In this document: in pieces, positions 19,517-34,511 of the stretch
Layout of the letters: the number at the start of each line of letters is the position of its first letter
Numbering within the stretch: position 1 is the stretch's first letter
DNA from: Bacillota bacterium
GTDB lineage: Bacteria > Bacillota > Negativicutes > CTSoil-072
DNA: 64,000 nucleotides
Assembly: GCA_017889545.1 (NCBI GenBank)
Contig: JAGFZV010000002.1
Location: forward strand, 186,001 to 250,000
Direction of reading: 5' to 3'
Program-made: the position numbers and the translations under genes
Notes under the pieces: model-generated
What the model saw: only the letters and a program-made list of their open reading frames with translations
The model's database searches: none
Told to the model about the DNA's origin: nothing

Positions 19517-19580
19517 AATTATCTTATGTTGCAAAAGGCCAATCTGCGGTGTAACAACTATGTCCCCTTGCTTCGAGAGG

Positions 19581-19606
19581 AGCCGTCTAACGGCTTCTTT
19601 TTTTTG
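19581..19606 (+). terminator. Rho-independent terminator
   Basis: AGCCGT-CTA-ACGGCT followed by a long T run. The same hairpin with T run occurs at 25830 after the rhodanese operon. The rest of the 373-bp gap to 19767 is the repeat element and AT-rich upstream DNA with an inverted repeat CCTTTCTATATAGAAAGG just before the ribosome site. Confidence 0.7.
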
Positions 19607-19766: not shown

Positions 19767-20807
19767 ATGCGGCGATCAAAAAAAAGTATTGCAATGATTG
19801 TTTTGGCGTTGTGTTTAACTTTTTTGTTTACTGGTTGCGGCTCCAGGCAAACTGCGGTTGAAGATTTGAAGCCTGCACCAACAGTTGCCGTTGCTGAACC
19901 AACCGTTGTTTTGCAGGCGCAAACAGACGCATACCTAAAACAAAACCGGCTGCTTTTTGTTGAACCTCAGGAAATTTTGGAAAAAGCGGTAACGTCTGGT
20001 GATCAAAGCTATTATCTTGTGGATATCCGGAATGACGATCATTACGCCAACGCGCACATACCGGGAGCGATACATATCGCCTACGCCGATGTCTGGCGGC
20101 AGAATAAAATAGAATATTTGCCGAAGGACAAAAAAATCATCATCATTGATTATTCCGGACATACCGCCAGTCAAGTCGCTGCTTTCTGGGGGATGCTCGG
20201 ATTTGATGCCGTGGCCATGAAAAACGGAATGGCAGGCTGGACTCGCGAGAAGGAAGTGATCGGCGGAGCAGCATTGCCGTGTGAAGCGCAAAATTATCCG
20301 GTTGTAACGCTGGCTGCTGCCGCGCCGGTAGAAGAGTTTCTTCTGCCCCAATGGGAAACAAAAGCGACAAATTTTACAGAACTATTGATCAGCAGGTCAC
20401 AGGAAGCAACAGGGATTTTACCGGTCATTCAGTCCAAGGATTTTAAGGATAATATGAAAAAATATTCTATCATCGATATCCGGCAGCCGGAACATTATGC
20501 CGCGGGACATGTTGAAGGCGCTGTAAATATTCCTTTTCGTACGATTGCTGAAATGCAAAATTTAAAAAAACTTTCTCCCGATAAGGAGATTGTTGTGATT
20601 TGCTATGACGGGCATGCCTCCAGTCAGGCGGCCAGACTGTTGAATCAGCTGGGATATCATGCCACAGTGCTGAAGGATGGCATGAGCGCCTGGATTGCTG
20701 ACGAAAAGGTTATTGGTGCAAAGCCGATTGCCTGCAATATTGCCGAGAAGCCGATTGTCAAGTTGAATGCGCCATTGGAGGCCGGACCTTCAATGGCTGC
20801 AACCTGA
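19767..20807 (+). CDS. Tandem rhodanese-domain lipoprotein A
   Basis: A 346-residue exported lipoprotein (signal peptide ending FLFTGC). Two rhodanese domains follow, about residues 60-175 and 215-330. The second has the catalytic Cys in VVICYDGHASSQ. The first has Asp at that place (IIIDYSGHTASQ) and should not transfer sulfane sulfur. It is the first gene before a Psr/Phs-type molybdoenzyme, so it may bind or deliver sulfane sulfur or polysulfide at the outer face of the membrane; this is inference. The ATG has AAGGGGAGGG upstream. Confidence 0.9.
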   Translation: MRRSKKSIAMIVLALCLTFLFTGCGSRQTAVEDLKPAPTVAVAEPTVVLQAQTDAYLKQNRLLFVEPQEILEKAVTSGDQSYYLVDIRNDDHYANAHIPGAIHIAYADVWRQNKIEYLPKDKKIIIIDYSGHTASQVAAFWGMLGFDAVAMKNGMAGWTREKEVIGGAALPCEAQNYPVVTLAAAAPVEEFLLPQWETKATNFTELLISRSQEATGILPVIQSKDFKDNMKKYSIIDIRQPEHYAAGHVEGAVNIPFRTIAEMQNLKKLSPDKEIVVICYDGHASSQAARLLNQLGYHATVLKDGMSAWIADEKVIGAKPIACNIAEKPIVKLNAPLEAGPSMAAT

Positions 20808-20864
20808 GGGTGATCATAGTGCAGTCAGGTCTGGCTGCGTAAAGACAAACGGAAGGTGATAACG

Positions 20865-23090
20865 ATGTGGAATATTAGCAGACGAACTTTTCTTAAGGCA
20901 GGGATTGCTGCCGGTGCAGCCTGTGCAGCGCCGGTTGCCTTTGATTTCAAATCGTTTGTAAAAGGGTCGGCTGAAAGCCAAGTTGATCGTATTCCATCGA
21001 CTTGCAATGGTTGTTCAAGCAATTGCGCGATGTTTGTTTATGTGAAAAACGGACGGTTGTGGAAATTGGAAGGAATTCCAGGGGCGATGAGAAACGAAGG
21101 CACTCTTTGTGCCCGTGCTTATGGTGTTGCCGCGGATATTTACAATCCCGACCGGATAAAACAGCCGATGAAACGGGTCGGTGAAGGCAACCAGTTTGCG
21201 CCAATCAGTTGGGAACAGGCATTTAAAGAAATTGCTGAAAAACTGACGAAAATCATTGATAAAAATACCGGGAATTCGGTTGCCTGGATGGCTCACGGGG
21301 GCAAGGAAACATATGCGCAGATGCTTCTTGATGAGATTGGCGCGGCGACCTATATTACCCATTATTCGACCTGTTTTACGGCAAAAACAAATGCCTGGGA
21401 CAAGATGATCGGCGCACAACTCACTTCGGACATGGACCGGTCGAATTATATGCTGTTTGCCGGACGTAATTATGCCGGCGCCGTTATGCCCGGCGCCATG
21501 CGCAGGATCATGCGGGCTAAAAAACGGGGCGCTAAAATTATTGTGGTGGATCCACGCTTGTGTGAGTTGGCAAAAGTCGCTGATGAATGGATCCCAATAC
21601 GTCCGGGTACCGATCTTGCTTTTTTTCTGGGATTGGCGCACACGCTGATTATCGAGAAATTATATAATGCAGATTTTGTTGCAAAATTTGTTTTTGGGTT
21701 CGAAGAATTTTGGAATGCCAACAAAACGTTTACCGCTGACAAGGCGGCGGCAATCTGTGATATTCCGGCGGATAAAATCCGGTCGATCGCCAGAGAAATG
21801 GCTCGTAATGCGCCGGCTTCTTTCTTGGAACCGGGATATCATGGTTTGCACAACCATTATGTCAGCAGTACGCAAATTGCTCAGGCGAATGTGATTGTGA
21901 ACGCGTTGCTGGGTAACTTTTATCAGCATGGAGGGTTGATGCCCAGCGCTGCTCCCAAATTCGGCAAGCTATCTTTGCCTAAGAGACTTCAACCCGAAAA
22001 AGGTCCGCGGGCGGATGGCGCCGGGGTGAGAAATGAATATCCAACAGTGGAACCTGGTCGGGGAATTGCCCAAAATATGCCGGAATTAATTGCTCAGGGT
22101 AAGATAAAAGCGGTTTTCATTTATCACTATAATCCATTGCGAACTGCTCCCGACCCGGAATACCAGAAGAAAATCGCCAATGCGGAATTGGTTGTTTCGA
22201 TCCCGATCGATTGGAATGAAACATCGGTGTACGCAGCTCACTATATCTTGCCCGAACATTATTTTTTGGAGCGGCTGGAAACTCCCAAGTCACTTTCCGG
22301 AAATATTGCCTACGATTATCCGCAAGTGGTTATGCGCTTTCCTGCCATCAAACCGCTGCATGATACCAAATCGCTGCTGGATATTCTAAAAGGACTTACT
22401 GCCGCAATGAAAATTGATGACCTTTTTCCGTTTACCGTTGAGGAAGAGGCGGAGGCGATGCTGCGGCCGCTGAATATAAGTATCGCCAAGATGAAAGAAA
22501 CTGGTTGTTATGAGCTTCCGGATCCGGTCCGTCCCGGCTTCCCTATGATCGATGGAAAACCGGCTGGCAATTCGACGACCGGAAAAGTGGAGTTTTCCAT
22601 CGGAGCATTTAAGTTGCACGGCCGTCAGGGAGTTCCGGTATGGATCCCGCCGCTCGTCAGTCCCAAAGAGGACAACGAATTCCGGCTTATCCATGGAAAA
22701 CAGCCTTGGCACTCCCATTCAGTTACAAGTGATAGCCGGTATTTGATGGCTATTTCCGATAGTTATCATGGCAGTTGGCTGTGGATGAATTCCGTCCGGG
22801 CGGAAAAACTGGGGATTAAAAACGGCGATACGGTAACCGTTGAAGCCAATATTCGTTATGGTGAAACGTCCAGAAAGGTCAGCAAAACAATTCCGGTTAA
22901 AGTCACGGAAATGCTGCACCCGGAATGTGTCTGGGTTCCCTCTGGGTATGGAAATTTCTCGCCGCAAGCGAAATTTGGCTACCAAAAGGGGATCAATTAT
23001 AATGATTTTGCTGCGGCCAGAGTGGAGCCTCTTTCAGGCAGTTGCATGGTACAAGAAGTCATCGTAACCATCCGGAAGGGAGGAAAATAA
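20865..23090 (+). CDS. Molybdopterin oxidoreductase catalytic subunit (Psr/Phs-like), Tat-exported
   Basis: A 741-residue DMSO-reductase-superfamily enzyme. The N-terminus carries a twin-arginine signal, SRRTFLKAG. A 4Fe-4S motif C-x2-C-x3-C...C (CNGCSSNC then LCAR) follows. A Cys in HYSTCFTAK lies where Psr/Phs enzymes have their molybdenum ligand. The C-terminal pterin-binding domain contains LIHGKQPWHSHS. With the next two genes it forms a membrane-anchored three-subunit reductase; polysulfide, thiosulfate or a related sulfur compound is the likely substrate given the flanking rhodaneses. ATG 20865 is preferred over GTG 20856. No dedicated TorD-like chaperone gene is adjacent. Confidence 0.92.
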   Translation: MWNISRRTFLKAGIAAGAACAAPVAFDFKSFVKGSAESQVDRIPSTCNGCSSNCAMFVYVKNGRLWKLEGIPGAMRNEGTLCARAYGVAADIYNPDRIKQPMKRVGEGNQFAPISWEQAFKEIAEKLTKIIDKNTGNSVAWMAHGGKETYAQMLLDEIGAATYITHYSTCFTAKTNAWDKMIGAQLTSDMDRSNYMLFAGRNYAGAVMPGAMRRIMRAKKRGAKIIVVDPRLCELAKVADEWIPIRPGTDLAFFLGLAHTLIIEKLYNADFVAKFVFGFEEFWNANKTFTADKAAAICDIPADKIRSIAREMARNAPASFLEPGYHGLHNHYVSSTQIAQANVIVNALLGNFYQHGGLMPSAAPKFGKLSLPKRLQPEKGPRADGAGVRNEYPTVEPGRGIAQNMPELIAQGKIKAVFIYHYNPLRTAPDPEYQKKIANAELVVSIPIDWNETSVYAAHYILPEHYFLERLETPKSLSGNIAYDYPQVVMRFPAIKPLHDTKSLLDILKGLTAAMKIDDLFPFTVEEEAEAMLRPLNISIAKMKETGCYELPDPVRPGFPMIDGKPAGNSTTGKVEFSIGAFKLHGRQGVPVWIPPLVSPKEDNEFRLIHGKQPWHSHSVTSDSRYLMAISDSYHGSWLWMNSVRAEKLGIKNGDTVTVEANIRYGETSRKVSKTIPVKVTEMLHPECVWVPSGYGNFSPQAKFGYQKGINYNDFAAARVEPLSGSCMVQEVIVTIRKGGK

Positions 23091-23091
23091 A

Positions 23092-23637
23092 ATGCCGCAT
23101 TATGCTATGCTGATTGATGCAGCGCGTTGTACGGGATGTGCGGCCTGCCGGATTGCCTGTCAAATGCAATGGCAACTGCCGCCGGAAATTTTTTTCAATC
23201 GACTGGAGTTTCGCGAACAGGGAAAATATCCTCATGTCCAGCAGGAAATTGTGCCTGTGCAGTGTATGCATTGCGATCATCCGCCTTGCGCGACAGTATG
23301 TCCGACACAAGCTACGTATAAACGCGACGATGGCCTGGTGTTGATTGATGAGTCGAAATGCATAGGCTGTAAATACTGCGTTGTTGCTTGTCCTTATGAT
23401 GTAAGGCAGGTCAATGAACGGGGGATTCCCGAAAAGTGCCGTTTCTGCGCCGGCCATATTGAAAATGGCGGTCAGCCTCCATGCGTCACAACCTGTATGA
23501 ATACGGTCCGGGTGTTTGGAGATTTGGATGACCCGGACAGTGAGATCAGCCGGCAGATGAAGGAAAAAAATGTTTACCGGCTGGCGGAGTATAAAGGAAC
23601 AAAACCTCGTGTGTTCTATGTTAAGAACGGGGGGTGA
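23092..23637 (+). CDS. Four-cluster ferredoxin subunit (PsrB/PhsB/DmsB-like)
   Basis: A 181-residue electron-transfer subunit. Four groups of Cys bind four 4Fe-4S clusters: CTGCAACRIAC, CMHCDHPPCATVC, CIGCKYCVVAC, and CRFC with PPCVTTC. It carries electrons between the membrane quinone subunit and the molybdenum subunit. It has no export signal of its own, as expected for co-export with the Tat-targeted partner. The start codon follows the previous stop by one base, with GGGAGG upstream. Confidence 0.95.
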   Translation: MPHYAMLIDAARCTGCAACRIACQMQWQLPPEIFFNRLEFREQGKYPHVQQEIVPVQCMHCDHPPCATVCPTQATYKRDDGLVLIDESKCIGCKYCVVACPYDVRQVNERGIPEKCRFCAGHIENGGQPPCVTTCMNTVRVFGDLDDPDSEISRQMKEKNVYRLAEYKGTKPRVFYVKNGG

Positions 23638-23645
23638 GATCAAAT

Positions 23646-24752
23646 ATGCGAATGTTTGAACGATGGATGGCAATACCGGGCATTTTGGCTGCAATCGCTT
23701 TTGCGGGCGCGATTTACAAATGGGTCTATGGGGAACATGCATTAGGGACTTCGGCTGTGGTGCCATGGGGAAGTCTCATTGCCGGCTACGCATTTTTTGC
23801 TGCTGCTGCCACGGGAGTTGGATTAATTGGCGCTGTCGGCCATCTTAGCGGGAAACCGGCATTGGCGTCACTGGAAAAGAGAAGCTTGTTTCTATCGCTG
23901 GCGTTGTTACTATCCGGTTTTGTCTTGATTGGTGTGGAGCTTGGCAACCCTTTCCATTTAGTGTATGTTGTTATTTCACCGAATTTCCAATCTGGGATAT
24001 GGTGGATGAGTTTTCTGTATACGATTTATCTGGTTCTTTTGTTTATCGAATGCTATTTCAGTCAGGTGGATCCTGCAAATAAAAATCTGAAATTGGTCGG
24101 TGTGATTGCTATTGTCAGTAAAGTGGCGGCAGTATGCACTCTGGGGGCGATTTTTGCACTGGCGTCTACGCGCATTTTCTGGTCCGGCATTTACTTCCCG
24201 CTATACATATTGCTGACAGCTGTGCTTTCCGGAGCAGCTGCGCTGATACTCTCCCTATATCTTACGGGAAACGGCAAAGGGAAAACAGTGGACAGCCATG
24301 TTATGGCTGCATTAAGCAAGATTATGGCTGTAACGATTGTCTTGGCGCTGCTGTTTACTGCGGGGAAAATTCTTTACGACAGCCGGTCGGGCATTTCCGC
24401 TTTGCAAGATGCAGCGGCGGTTCTTGTCAGTGGTCCGCTTGCAGTGCGTTTCTGGGGCATGGAGGTCGTGGTCGGAATGCTTATTCCTCTAATGCTGATC
24501 TTCCGTTTTAATCTGACAAGAGTAGTCATTGCGGCAATTGCAGTATTGGCTGGCGTTTTTTTCATGCGGGTTGATTTCATTATGGCGGGTCAAATCGTAC
24601 CGCAAGTAGTGGTGGAAGGTGTCCAGCATGTTGTTTATCACAGTTATTCAATGACATGGACTGAATGGGCTCTGATTGCCGGAGCATTTGCCGCCAGTTC
24701 GCTCATGTATACCTTTTTTGAAAAAAAATTCAATCTCGATGTTGGTAAATAG
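23646..24752 (+). CDS. NrfD/PsrC-family membrane subunit
   Basis: A 368-residue integral membrane protein with nine or ten transmembrane segments. It is the quinol-interacting anchor of Psr/Phs/Nrf-type complexes. It is co-translated with the ferredoxin subunit; the frames overlap at a GTG, but the ATG at 23646 has GGGGGGTGA at better spacing. It should link menaquinol oxidation to reduction at the outer face. Confidence 0.92.
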   Translation: MRMFERWMAIPGILAAIAFAGAIYKWVYGEHALGTSAVVPWGSLIAGYAFFAAAATGVGLIGAVGHLSGKPALASLEKRSLFLSLALLLSGFVLIGVELGNPFHLVYVVISPNFQSGIWWMSFLYTIYLVLLFIECYFSQVDPANKNLKLVGVIAIVSKVAAVCTLGAIFALASTRIFWSGIYFPLYILLTAVLSGAAALILSLYLTGNGKGKTVDSHVMAALSKIMAVTIVLALLFTAGKILYDSRSGISALQDAAAVLVSGPLAVRFWGMEVVVGMLIPLMLIFRFNLTRVVIAAIAVLAGVFFMRVDFIMAGQIVPQVVVEGVQHVVYHSYSMTWTEWALIAGAFAASSLMYTFFEKKFNLDVGK

Positions 24753-24828
24753 GAAGTTTAAGGGGGGATCGGTTTCGCTTATTAGGGAAGTTTAACTTAA
24801 GATTACAAATATGAGAGGGGAATGAACT

Positions 24829-25761
24829 ATGTTGAAACAACGTATCACTTCTTTTGTTATCACGTTGATGCTATTACTTGCTTTTTTGGTTTCCGGTTGT
24901 GGTTCTCAGCAAACGAAAGCTCCGGAAAAACCGGCTCCTGCAGCAATTGACAATGTTGCAGTAACAAAGGAAGCGACTTGGGATGCTTACAAGAAAGTGG
25001 TAGCCGATGTTCAGGGCAAGACGTTTCCTCTTGACGCTGTTAAAGCCAAAGAATTGCTGACGGGCAATGAAAGCAAATATTTGATTATCGACATGAGATC
25101 GCCGGAAGATTATGCTCAGGGACACATCAAAGGCGCGGTCAATTTATCGGGCGTCCAATTGGCGGATTATCTGGACAAACTGCCTACGGATAAGACCTTG
25201 TTGCTTTATTGTTATACAGGACAAAATTGCGGTTTAGCAATGGTGCCTCTCAAAGCGTATGGCTACAAAGCGATATCTATTTCCAAGGGGTTCCCGGCTG
25301 TCCAAACTGCAGGCTTTGATTTGGACACGGCAACTGTCGCTTTTAAGCCGGCTGAAAACAAAGCTCCGGCAGATCCAAAAGTCGCTGCGGCTTTGACTGG
25401 AATAAAGGAAAATTATTCGGCTATCGCTAAGCAGGCTGCAGCTAAGACACTCATTCTGAAGGTATCGGATGCCAAAGCTTTGGTGGATGGCTCTCCGGAT
25501 AAATATGTGTATATTGATCTGCGAAATGCTGAAGACTATGAAAAAGCAAAGGTGAAGGGCGCCATCAGCGCTCCATTAGCGGATCTTCAGGCCAGGATAG
25601 CCAGTTTCCCGAAAGATAAGACACTGGTTTTGTATTGCTATAGCGGTCAGACGGCAGCAATGGCAACCGCACCTTTAAAAGCGGAAGGATTTAAAATGGT
25701 GTCGATTTCAGGCGGTTTCCCACAGGTAGAGGAAGGGAATTTGCCGATTGAAAGAAAGTAG
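24829..25761 (+). CDS. Tandem rhodanese-domain lipoprotein B
   Basis: A 310-residue lipoprotein with signal peptide ending LVSGC. It has two rhodanese domains (about residues 65-165 and 205-305). Both keep the catalytic Cys, in LLLYCYTGQNCG and LVLYCYSGQTAA. Compared with lipoprotein A, both domains could be active. It closes the molybdoenzyme operon and is followed by hairpins and a terminator. GAGGGG precedes the ATG. Confidence 0.9.
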   Translation: MLKQRITSFVITLMLLLAFLVSGCGSQQTKAPEKPAPAAIDNVAVTKEATWDAYKKVVADVQGKTFPLDAVKAKELLTGNESKYLIIDMRSPEDYAQGHIKGAVNLSGVQLADYLDKLPTDKTLLLYCYTGQNCGLAMVPLKAYGYKAISISKGFPAVQTAGFDLDTATVAFKPAENKAPADPKVAAALTGIKENYSAIAKQAAAKTLILKVSDAKALVDGSPDKYVYIDLRNAEDYEKAKVKGAISAPLADLQARIASFPKDKTLVLYCYSGQTAAMATAPLKAEGFKMVSISGGFPQVEEGNLPIERK

Positions 25762-25771
25762 CGGATCAATT

Positions 25772-25855
25772 TGTGCGGGACAACGAACCTGTTCCATTGT
25801 CCCACAGATCTCACATGTCTCACATGAAAGAAGCCGTCTAACGGCTTCTTTTTTT
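25772..25855 (+). terminator. Two hairpins ending the molybdoenzyme operon
   Basis: The first hairpin (GGGACAA / TTGTCCC, 25772-25806) is followed by GAAGCCGT / ACGGCTTC with a T run (25830-25855). The second is a near copy of the terminator at 19581. Confidence 0.8.
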
Positions 25856-25895: not shown

Positions 25896-25924
25896 TTGAC
25901 AGACGGATGATCTCGTTATCTAAT
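25896..25924 (+). promoter_or_regulatory. Sigma-A promoter of the MacB-like exporter operon
   Basis: TTGACA, 17 nt, TCTAAT. A second TTGACA lies 15 bp upstream at 25881. The leader to ATG 25953 would be only about 22 nt. Confidence 0.65.
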
Positions 25925-25952
25925 GAAATTAACAAGGGAGGCGGAAAAAATC

Positions 25953-26711
25953 ATGGCAACCCGATGGCTGTCCTGGCTAGCGGCGGATGATTTGCCGCAG
26001 CCTCGTGCCGATGCAGCTGCAGTGGAACTGATTGATGTGCGTAAGGTTTACGTCACCGGCGCAGGAGAATTCGAAGCGTTGCGCGAGGTGAATTTTCGTG
26101 TGCGCGCGGGAGAATTTGTGGCGGTAGTCGGCAAGTCCGGCAGCGGGAAATCGACGCTGATCAATATGATTACGGGCATTGATCGCCCCACGGAAGGGGA
26201 AGTGTGGGTTGCCGGTACGCCCATCCATTTGTTGACGGAAAACCAGATTGCCATTTGGCGGGGCCGTACGGTAGGGGTAGTATTCCAATTTTTTCAACTT
26301 CTGCCAACCTTGACTGCACTGGAAAATGTGATGCTGCCGATGGATTTTTGCAATGTAAATCCTCCATCAGGCCGGTCTCAGCGAGCCTTGGAACTATTGG
26401 AAATGGTAGGGGTAGGGAACCAGGCGGATAAATTGCCGGCCAAATTGTCTGGAGGAGAGCAGCAGCGCGTTGCCATCGCCCGCTGTTTGGCCAATGACCC
26501 GCCGCTGATCGTAGCGGATGAACCTACCGGCAATTTGGACACGCAAACTGCATCTGCCGTGATCGATCTATTTGTTGAGCTGGCTCAAAAAGGGAAAACA
26601 ATTTTAATTGTGACTCATGATGAAGACATTGCGCAGCGCGGCAGCCGGATCGTGGTTGTATCGGAAGGAAGGATTGTAAGCTCCGCCGTTGCCGGGGAGG
26701 CTAAATCATGA
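25953..26711 (+). CDS. MacB/LolD-type ABC transporter ATP-binding protein
   Basis: A 252-residue ATPase of the MacB/LolD/FtsE group: Walker [10 protein letters not shown], signature [16 protein letters not shown], Walker [14 protein letters not shown]-loop VTHDED. It pairs with the FtsX-like permease, whose ATG overlaps its stop by four bases. ATG 25953 has AGGGAGGCGG upstream. Confidence 0.93.
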
Positions 26712-29140
26712 GTTCTTTGCTAGGGATTAGTCCGCGCTGGCATAAAGTCTGGGCGGATTTATGGGGCAATAAGCTCCGTACAGTCCTGGTCGTCTTATCC
26801 ATTTCGGTTGGTGTATTTGCCATTGGCATGTTATATAGCTGTTATCTGATGTTTGAACGCGACTTGACGAATAGCTGGAGATCGGCATCTCCGGCAAGCG
26901 CTAGTTTATACGCAGATCCGTTTGATGAGGAGCTGGTTGACAGCATTCGAAGTTTGCGGGGCGTCAAAGAGGCGGAAGGCAGGCGAAATGCCGATATTCG
27001 CGTCAAAACTGCCGACGGAGAGTGGCGGCAAATGTTTTTGACCGCCATACCGGATTATGTCAAACAAAAAGTAAATATTGTACGTCCTCAGACCGGCGCT
27101 TGGCCGCCGGGAGACGGTGATGTGCTGCTGGAACGCTCGTCTCTTCAGAACCTGGGAATTGCTCAGGGTGATACGATCCTGGTCGAAACGCCTGCCGGAA
27201 AAAAGAGGGAGATGAAGGTAACCGGCGTGGTGTATGATGCCAGTCAGATCCCCAGTTTGTTCAGCGGCCGCTATTATGGCTATATCAATATGGATACCCT
27301 GGAAAAAATTGATGCGAGCCGGCAATTGGATCAGGTGAATTTTGTCGTTCAGCCATGGGTGCTGCAAGGCCAGGCAACCGAACCGATCGACGCAGTGGGA
27401 CGAAAGGCATGGAGCAAGCTGGAACAGGGGAATACGACGGTCTTTTGGCTGCAGGTCAACAAGCCGGGGGAGCACATGCTGCAGAGTGCGATCAATGCAT
27501 TGATTTGGTTGCTGGCGGCGATGGGAGCGCTGTCCCTAATCCTCGGGACCTTTTTGCTGGTCAATACGGTATCCGCCATTTTGGCTCAACAGGTTCGACA
27601 AGTGGGCATTATGAAGGCGATCGGCGCCCGTAAGGGGCAAATCTTGCAGATGTATTTGACATTGGTTGGGTTATATGGAATTTTGGCATTGTTTGTTGCG
27701 GCGCCGCTGGGAGCGGTAGCGGCTGATGCAGTTACACGTTTTATTGCCGGGGTCTTCAATTTTAATTCCGGTGGCTTGGCATTGCCTTGGCAGGTCATCG
27801 CTCTGGAGGCGGGAGTAGCCCTTTTGGTGCCATTGATTGCTGCATTGTGGCCAATCTGGCGAGGGACGGGTGTGACGGTCAGGGAAGCGGTCAGCGATTA
27901 TGGTATTAGCACTGTTGAAGCCAGTGGATGGCTGGACCAACGGGTGGACAGTATTCTGGAGCGTCTCAAGAAGCTGCCCCGTCCGGTGTTGCTGTCGTTG
28001 CGCAATACGTTTCGCCGCAAGGGCAGACTAATTCTTACGCTGCTGACCTTGACGCTGGCAGGAACTGTATTTATGGCTGTTTTTTCCGTTCGGTCATCTT
28101 TGTATTCGACATTGGATGAAGCGATGGATTATTTTCATTATGATGTTTCCATCGGTTTTATTCAAAACTACCGGGCAAGCCGGATTGAACAGGAAGTGAT
28201 GCGGGTCTCTGGTGTGAAAACAGTAGAGGCCTGGGGGATGACTTCCGGACGGGTACTCAGGGATGAACGCAAGGAGTCGGAGGATGAGGCGAGCAAGAAT
28301 GTGTTTATTTTGGCCCCGCCGATTCAAACAACGATGGTTAAGCCCCGGATTGTTGAAGGGCGATGGCTTATTCCCGGCGATGAGAGCGCTTTGGTAGTAA
28401 ATACAGAGGTTGTCAAGGACAGTCCGCAGTTGAAAGTGGGCGGCCCGGCAGTGATCAAAGTGGGAACCCGAAGGCTGGTGTTCACAGTCGTTGGTGTTGT
28501 GCAAAGCACTTTAACCGGCCCGATTGTATATGCTCCTTATGACTGGCTTACCGCTGCAGTTCAGGAGGCGGGACGCGCGCGGTCAGTGCAGGTGGTGGCC
28601 CAGTCTGCAGATCCTAAGGAACAAAGCGTCTTAGGGCGAGCCTTGGAAGAACACATGAAAAAAAACAGCCTGCGCGTTCAAGAAGTCAATGTTATCTGGG
28701 AACTGAAACAACGGATCCGGGCACAGTTTGATATTATTACCACCTTTTTATTAATCATGGCGGTTTTGCTGGCGGTAGTCGGCGCCCTTGGATTGACGGG
28801 CACGATGGGGATTAATGTGCTGGAGCGGACGCGGGAAATCGGCGTGTTGCGGGCGATTGGAGCTTCCAGCCTGGATATTGGCAAAATCTTTGTCATAGAG
28901 GCTTTGTGTATCGGCTTGATCAGTTGGCTGGCCGGTTTGATTCTGGCATTGCCGGTGGCGGCTGTTTTGAGTTATCAGGTTGGCGTTCTGTTTTTACAAA
29001 ATCCGTTGACTTTTTCTTTTAGCTTTCTGGGAGTGGCCATATGGTTGGTATTGTCGCTTCTTTTATCCGTGCTGGCCAGTCTTTTGCCAGCCTGGAACGC
29101 ATCGCGGCTTAGCGTCAAGGATGTGCTGAGTTATGAATAA
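26708..29140 (+). CDS. Large ABC permease with two FtsX/MacB domains
   Basis: An 810-residue inner-membrane protein. It is built of two MacB-like units: a helix near residue 20 ([18 protein letters not shown]), a periplasmic domain, and a cluster of helices about 262-400; then a helix near 440, a second periplasmic domain about 465-660, and helices about 680-800. The double architecture means one polypeptide can supply both membrane halves. MacB-type systems act as mechanotransmission exporters of peptides, lipids or siderophores; the substrate is unknown. Confidence 0.9.
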
Positions 29141-29172
29141 TAATAATACTGGAAAACGGAGGTGGCAATGAA

Positions 29173-30051
29173 ATGCAAAAACGACACTGGTTGGTACTAC
29201 TCCTTCTCTTGCTTGTGGCTGCAAGTGGTTGGTGGTTCTGGAACAACCGGCAGGAAAAAGCAAAGACATTGCCGCCGGTGAAGGCGGACAGCAGGGTTCT
29301 GGCTGAGGGAATGATCTTTCCTGTCAAATATGCTCAATTAGTGATGCCTGTGGATGGCAACATTGGCGAAATTTTGGTGACGGAAGGCGAGCAAGTGAAA
29401 GTCGGGCAGCCGTTGATCCGGTTGATTCGTCAAGACTATAAAGCCCGGGTAGCCATTGTTCGCTCTGATTTGGCGCGAGCATCGGCAATTGTAGAACAGG
29501 CAATAGTGAACTTGGCAGATACAGAGCGGGAACTGCAGCGACAGCAAAGGCTCGATGAGATTGGAGCTATCCCGCGGCAGCAGTTTGATCAGGCACAGAC
29601 GGCAGCCGAGCGCAACCGGACAATTTTAGCGCAGGCGCAAGCGGAATTGCAAACGCAAAAACAAAGACTTTCTGAGACGGAAAGCCTGTTGGATAAAACG
29701 GAGCTGACTGCACCGATTGAAGGTACAGTCATGTATTTGGATGTGAAGCCGGGGGAACATGCGTCAATTGGCACTGTTCTGGTGCGGATTGCGGATGAAT
29801 CGTCATGGGAAATTCGCAGTGACGATTTGACGGAATTGGTTGTAGCGAAAGTGCGGATAGGCGATAGGGTATCACTGACATTTGATGGCTTGCCAGGAGT
29901 GGAAATTCCGGGCAAGGTTAAATTTATCCGCCCTTACGGAGAGAAAAAACGCGGCGATATTACGTATACTGTGACCATTGCTCCAGAACGTTGGGATGAC
30001 CGGCTGCGCTGGAATATGACAGCGCAGATTGCGATTGAACCAATGCAGTAA
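29173..30051 (+). CDS. HlyD-family periplasmic adaptor (membrane fusion protein)
   Basis: A 292-residue protein with an N-terminal membrane anchor (LVLLLLLLVAASGWWFW). A biotinyl-lipoyl-like half motif (GNIGEILVTEGEQVKVGQPLIRL) precedes a coiled-coil hairpin (about residues 95-175), then the second half (APIEGTVMYLDVKPGEHASIG). It is the adaptor of the exporter formed with the two preceding genes. No TolC-like gene follows. Confidence 0.92.
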   Translation: MQKRHWLVLLLLLLVAASGWWFWNNRQEKAKTLPPVKADSRVLAEGMIFPVKYAQLVMPVDGNIGEILVTEGEQVKVGQPLIRLIRQDYKARVAIVRSDLARASAIVEQAIVNLADTERELQRQQRLDEIGAIPRQQFDQAQTAAERNRTILAQAQAELQTQKQRLSETESLLDKTELTAPIEGTVMYLDVKPGEHASIGTVLVRIADESSWEIRSDDLTELVVAKVRIGDRVSLTFDGLPGVEIPGKVKFIRPYGEKKRGDITYTVTIAPERWDDRLRWNMTAQIAIEPMQ

Positions 30052-34303: not shown

Positions 34304-34395
34304 GATAAGGTATACCGGGATATTTCGGGCGATACGGAAGTTTGCTGTTGAAAAAACGTTCTAAAGGTGCTATGCTTGATAACAAATAGAATAGT

Positions 34396-34491
34396 GAGGC
34401 AGGGGAGCTGGAGAGGCCGGCTGAGATATAGACCGTATTCGTTTATGACCCTTCAACCTGATCTGGGTAATGCCAGCGTAGGGATAAGCTT
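34396..34491 (+). promoter_or_regulatory. TPP riboswitch (THI element)
   Basis: The conserved parts are all present in order: GGGGAGC, GGCTGAGA, ACCCTTCAACCTGATCTGGGTAATGCCAGCGTAGGGA (split across 34447-34485). It precedes a thiamine-transport gene, so it should shut expression down when thiamine pyrophosphate binds. Confidence 0.96.
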
Positions 34492-34511
34492 GACGTTATA
34501 AGGCATTGGTG

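Follow-up and report, generated by a model that had tools for sequence, protein, structure and literature searches.

A Negativicutes relative of the respiratory selenite reductase (srr) operon, with a first rhodanese lipoprotein from a family that has mostly lost its supposed sulfur-carrying cysteine

The five-gene molybdoenzyme locus analyzed here is related to the srr operon of Bacillus selenitireducens MLS10. Its novelty lies in the first of its two rhodanese lipoproteins, whose family has mostly lost the cysteine supposed to carry sulfur. The original prediction knew of no described system with this design; the layout is already present in srrEABCDF of MLS10, a respiratory selenite reductase reportedly presented by Wells et al. 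in 2019. The gene arrangement is confirmed and is more strongly conserved than a single sequence could reveal, and the sulfane-sulfur relay proposed for it seems only partly compatible with the sequences compared.

The locus lies in the window, that is, the whole analyzed stretch of 64,000 nucleotides, from a host judged by relatedness to be a Negativicute. The five open reading frames between 19767 and 25761 were found where they had been predicted, with Pfam domains of the predicted families, and the features are as follows.

19575..19601, + strand: intrinsic terminator 5' of the five genes, GAGAGGAGCCGTCTAACGGCTTCTTTT then a T-run; -15.7 kcal/mol
19767..20807, + strand: E, SrrE-type lipoprotein with two rhodanese folds (Pfam Rhodanese x2)
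20856..23090, + strand: A, SrrA-type Mo-bisPGD catalytic subunit with a Tat signal (Pfam, motifs, tree)
23092..23637, + strand: B, four-cluster 4Fe-4S electron-transfer subunit (Pfam Fer4; 16 Cys)
23634..24752, + strand: C, NrfD/PsrC-type membrane anchor with a putative quinol site (Pfam NrfD, 88.8 bits)
24829..25761, + strand: F, tandem-rhodanese lipoprotein in the SrrF position (Pfam Rhodanese x2; loops)
25826..25852, + strand: intrinsic terminator 3' of F, before a MacAB-like exporter, GAAAGAAGCCGTCTAACGGCTTCTTTTTTT; -16.0 kcal/mol

Genes E, A, B, C and F are separated by 48, 1, -4 and 76 bases. As near-identical terminators bracket them, one at each side, they very probably form a single transcription unit. 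We excluded the MacAB-like exporter at 25923-30051 from the operon, as a terminator stands between the two and the exporter does not adjoin the operon in relatives; its LolD/MacB-like ATPase, duplicated FtsX-type permease and HlyD-type adaptor constitute a separate exporter. An Rfam search found no Moco or other riboswitch 5' of the operon. A TPP riboswitch (RF00059, 62.2 bits) was detected at 34391-34501 of the window.

The MLS10 operon is composed of srrA, srrB, srrC and srrD, together with the rhodanese proteins srrE and srrF, and the published masses are 38 (E), 45 (F), 80 (A), 17 (B), 43 (C) and 24 kDa (D) (review PMC12481199). B. selenitireducens is now placed by NCBI in Salisediminibacterium, and Salisediminibacterium genome G006 carries E-A-B-C-D-F with products of 38, 82, 20, 43, 24 and 46 kDa. 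From the genus and the subunit sizes we treated G006 as MLS10, and all sequences called MLS10 here carry this assignment. The window and the MLS10 operon share the E-A-B-C order, rhodanese genes at both ends, a Tat-exported PsrA-like A in the same supported clade, a four-cluster B and a membrane anchor C. They differ in three respects: srrD is not at the window locus; window F contains two rhodanese domains (CY[ST]GQ), whereas MLS10 SrrF has three (CGGxxC, CGGxxC, CASGAR); and the first and second domains of E carry Asp and Cys in the window but Cys and Gly in MLS10.

A scan of genome contigs, in which the operon or the part of it held by a contig was counted, found it in Negativicutes MAGs, Natroniella sulfidigena, Salipaludibacillus, a Peptococcaceae MAG and Salisediminibacterium halotolerans. 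E stands directly upstream of A in all 20 members of the clade of A, as well as in the partial member L010, and directly upstream of the molybdoenzyme in none of 12 sister-clade members (the contigs L010 and L014 end before F). Since every clade member has this pair, conservation of the five-gene set is well beyond chance. E is found in 7 of 381 Negativicutes genomes, and the same seven carry A at an identity of at least 70% in a sample of 121 genomes. The survey of neighbourhoods that had been suggested did recover the exact E-A-B-C-F order of the window, in the f26 and f30 relatives; the order is E-A-B-D-F-C in the f22 relatives, E-A-B-C-D-F in Bacilli, and E-A-B-D-F with no adjacent C in Natroniella and G375. 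The chaperone gene srrD is absent between C and F at the window locus, and the only two PF02613 matches of the host genome adjoin other MopB operons. Because srrD is likewise absent in the f26 and f30 relatives, we regard its presence as variable, and not as defining, for srr-type operons.

The catalytic subunit carries Molybdopterin, Molydop_binding and Molybdop_Fe4S4 domains and a TAT signal (Pfam), with RRTFLK as its Tat motif. Cys 50, 53, 57 and 85 are the predicted Fe4S4 ligands and Cys173 the predicted Mo ligand, which aligns with the Mo-ligand region of Thermus thermophilus PsrA (2vpw). In the phylogenetic tree, A falls within a clade of 20 members that has 100/100 support, is supported at 100 in a larger quick tree too, contains the MLS10-assigned SrrA and is separate from PhsA, PsrA and ArrA. 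Its identity to the MLS10-assigned SrrA is 57%; a [NiFe]-hydrogenase-linked paralogue encoded by the host genome reaches 44%, PhsA proteins 32-34%, T. thermophilus PsrA 32% and ArrA 30%. Assignment as a PhsA thiosulfate reductase was rejected, as A scores 369 bits against an NCBIfam equivalog cut-off of 694 and lies apart in the tree. Assignment as an ArrA arsenate reductase was also rejected (146 bits against a cut-off of 1600; ArrA lies outside the clade of A). Grouping with a non-sulfur clade, for example arsenate reductases, had been named as evidence against the original prediction; A does not group with arsenate reductases, yet it clusters with a selenite reductase.

We then considered the two lipoproteins, for which the original prediction had claimed a surface location and two rhodanese domains each. 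Both are lipoproteins, with a lipobox ending at Cys24, but Negativicutes are a diderm class, and periplasmic anchoring is therefore as likely as surface exposure. Both also have two rhodanese folds, and the AlphaFold model of E (pLDDT 86.8, pTM 0.83) matches PDB rhodaneses; however, the first-domain loop of window E, DYSGHTASQ (aa 128), carries Asp where the catalytic Cys is expected, and only the second (CYDGHASSQ) retains that Cys. Window E is 31% identical to the MLS10-assigned SrrE (E 4e-50). Among 20 homologues, domain 1 shows Cys (11) or Asp (9) at this position, and domain 2 shows Gly (8), Asp (6), Cys (5) or Ser (1). Thus, the catalytic Cys is missing from at least one domain in 19 of the 20 and from both in five, and a single homologue has both. 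The conserved active-site Cys expected of a catalytic sulfurtransferase is not a feature of the E family, window E keeping one, in domain 2. Retention of the fold and position of E with loss of its catalytic residue speaks against E as a step in a conserved sulfur relay; given these counts, such a role cannot be general. In addition, the C-terminal tail of E (~20765-20804) is strongly conserved, reading LNAPLxPGPSxAAT in Negativicutes, and ends in a Cys-containing GEASCG or EAGCS-like sequence in most Bacilli; it is possibly a binding or carrier tail.

Lipoprotein F presents a different picture. Its loops in the window, CYTGQ and CYSGQ, both have the Cys, and the conserved active-site Cys expected of a sulfurtransferase was found in both domains of all seven Negativicutes homologues; SrrF of Bacilli keeps it in all three domains. 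No three-domain SrrF orthologue was found at the F position of the window, where the protein has two domains only, related to the first two of the three in SrrF (hhalign, 98.8%). We therefore treat window F as a variant in the SrrF slot, distantly related and with no clear orthology; its predicted structure was of low confidence (pLDDT 54) and was set aside. Moreover, the SrrF homologues of Natroniella (L052 5566-6792, minus strand) and G375 (L099 9708-10925, plus strand) are each interrupted by a single in-frame TGA. It falls precisely where the second rhodanese loop has its second Cys (CGGFFC in Bacilli; here CGGFQ-TGA), and similarity continues to either side of it. About 16 bases 3' of the TGA starts a hairpin whose loop opens with G (z -2.7 and -3.3), and SelB is present in both genomes. 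These homologues are candidate selenocysteine forms of SrrF.

Overall, the locus probably represents a Negativicutes member of the srr family encoding a quinol-linked periplasmic reductase, whose substrate is most likely selenite or a chalcogen compound like it. What the original prediction had right is an exported reductase that is linked to quinol, belongs broadly to the Psr/Phs/Srr lineage and is partnered by two tandem-rhodanese proteins. Gene content, order, clade and terminators were read from the sequence; electron route and substrate are what we infer. Menaquinol would be oxidized at C, and its electrons would travel by way of B and its four clusters to the Mo-bisPGD centre of periplasmic A. 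There, an oxidized chalcogen compound would be reduced, conversion of selenite to elemental selenium being the most likely reaction. As its rhodanese Cys is unconserved, E would probably serve chiefly to dock with A or present substrate to it, while F, in which both rhodanese domains retain their Cys, would probably deal with persulfide or selenopersulfide, either as donor or in product removal. Selenite is favoured by the 57% identity of A to SrrA within one clade, by the E-A pair found throughout that clade and in none of the sister-clade members, by the separate PhsA of the host and by the closeness of the published Srr masses to those of the G006 gene order; rhodaneses beside SrrA are also cited in the literature as a signature of selenite reducers. 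Against it, only one clade member has an enzyme assay in the literature, so the substrate may vary, the window operon has no srrD, F is no clear orthologue of the three-domain SrrF, and the comparison with MLS10 depends on the assignment of G006.

The strongest competitor, which we consider less likely, is a polysulfide or elemental-sulfur reductase to which E and F pass sulfane sulfur, as originally predicted and as in Wolinella Sud-Psr or the haloarchaeal rhodanese-Psr systems. In Wolinella succinogenes, Sud is a periplasmic rhodanese working with a quinol-linked Psr, a pairing that resembles the window by description, but Sud is a single-domain protein, unlike the tandem rhodaneses found here. 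T. thermophilus PsrABC (2vpw) shares the A/B/C architecture and the aligned Cys173 region, but its PsrA is only 32% identical to A, and we know of no rhodanese pair associated with it. In PMC6176080 and PMC5437934, the second of which cites Wolinella Sud-Psr, haloarchaeal rhodanese-Psr operons are tied to sulfur respiration by proteomics; as described there, a Psr-type enzyme, periplasmic in one case, has one adjacent rhodanese gene, against two in the window. Further in favour of sulfur, Cys is kept at three of the four rhodanese sites of the window, and Natroniella sulfidigena, described as a sulfur respirer, carries an srr-type operon whose molybdoenzyme is its single close relative of A. 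A relay feeding a sulfur reductase is nonetheless doubtful, as A clusters with SrrA, away from PsrA and PhsA, the host has a PhsA besides, and the Cys of E is unconserved, even though F keeps both of its own. Clade membership points to selenite and the Natroniella operon to sulfur, and on such comparisons we would rank selenite first and sulfur second. Another oxyanion (tellurite, thiosulfate, tetrathionate or arsenate) is improbable, the counter-evidence bearing on the last three: the wider MopB clade includes thiosulfate, tetrathionate and arsenate enzymes, but A has low identity to ArrA and PhsA, the TtrA model gives 50 bits against a cut-off of 1750, and the host has a separate, true PhsA at C40 (968.6 bits against 694), so thiosulfate reduction has its own candidate.

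These comparisons extend the srr-type operon beyond alkaliphilic Bacilli. Negativicutes and Halanaerobiales join them in one clade, whose fixed E-A pair can serve as a neighbourhood marker for candidate chalcogen respirers. As the rhodanese partners cannot all be sulfurtransferases, the roles of SrrE and SrrF become testable. Tentatively, and with less confidence than we place in the srr assignment, SrrE might be a pseudo-rhodanese, a tandem-rhodanese scaffold in which the catalytic Cys has given way to Asp or Gly and which the molybdoenzyme requires as a partner to dock substrate, with thiol chemistry (thiol and selenol in Halanaerobiales) residing on F. If so, the operon would serve to handle chalcogens rather than to relay sulfur.

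Additional molybdoenzymes related to A were observed. A sister group in Bacilli and Halanaerobiales (L100 3781-7413, L101 5263-9773, L102 4658-9136 and L054 7291-10853) has a chaperone gene and lacks rhodanese neighbours. The host itself has a paralogous operon (L049 5772-12106; G000:C22) encoding a HycI protease, an SrrA-related molybdoenzyme, a 4Fe-4S protein, the small and large subunits of a [NiFe]-hydrogenase and a TorD-type chaperone; NrfD is absent. Genes for such a molybdoenzyme, its 4Fe-4S protein and both hydrogenase subunits recur in seven other Negativicutes genomes, and in L045 (G109) a HycI-molybdoenzyme pair lies directly 3' of the srr-type operon. Judged by its gene content, this paralogous operon looks like an exported hydrogen-driven reductase complex.
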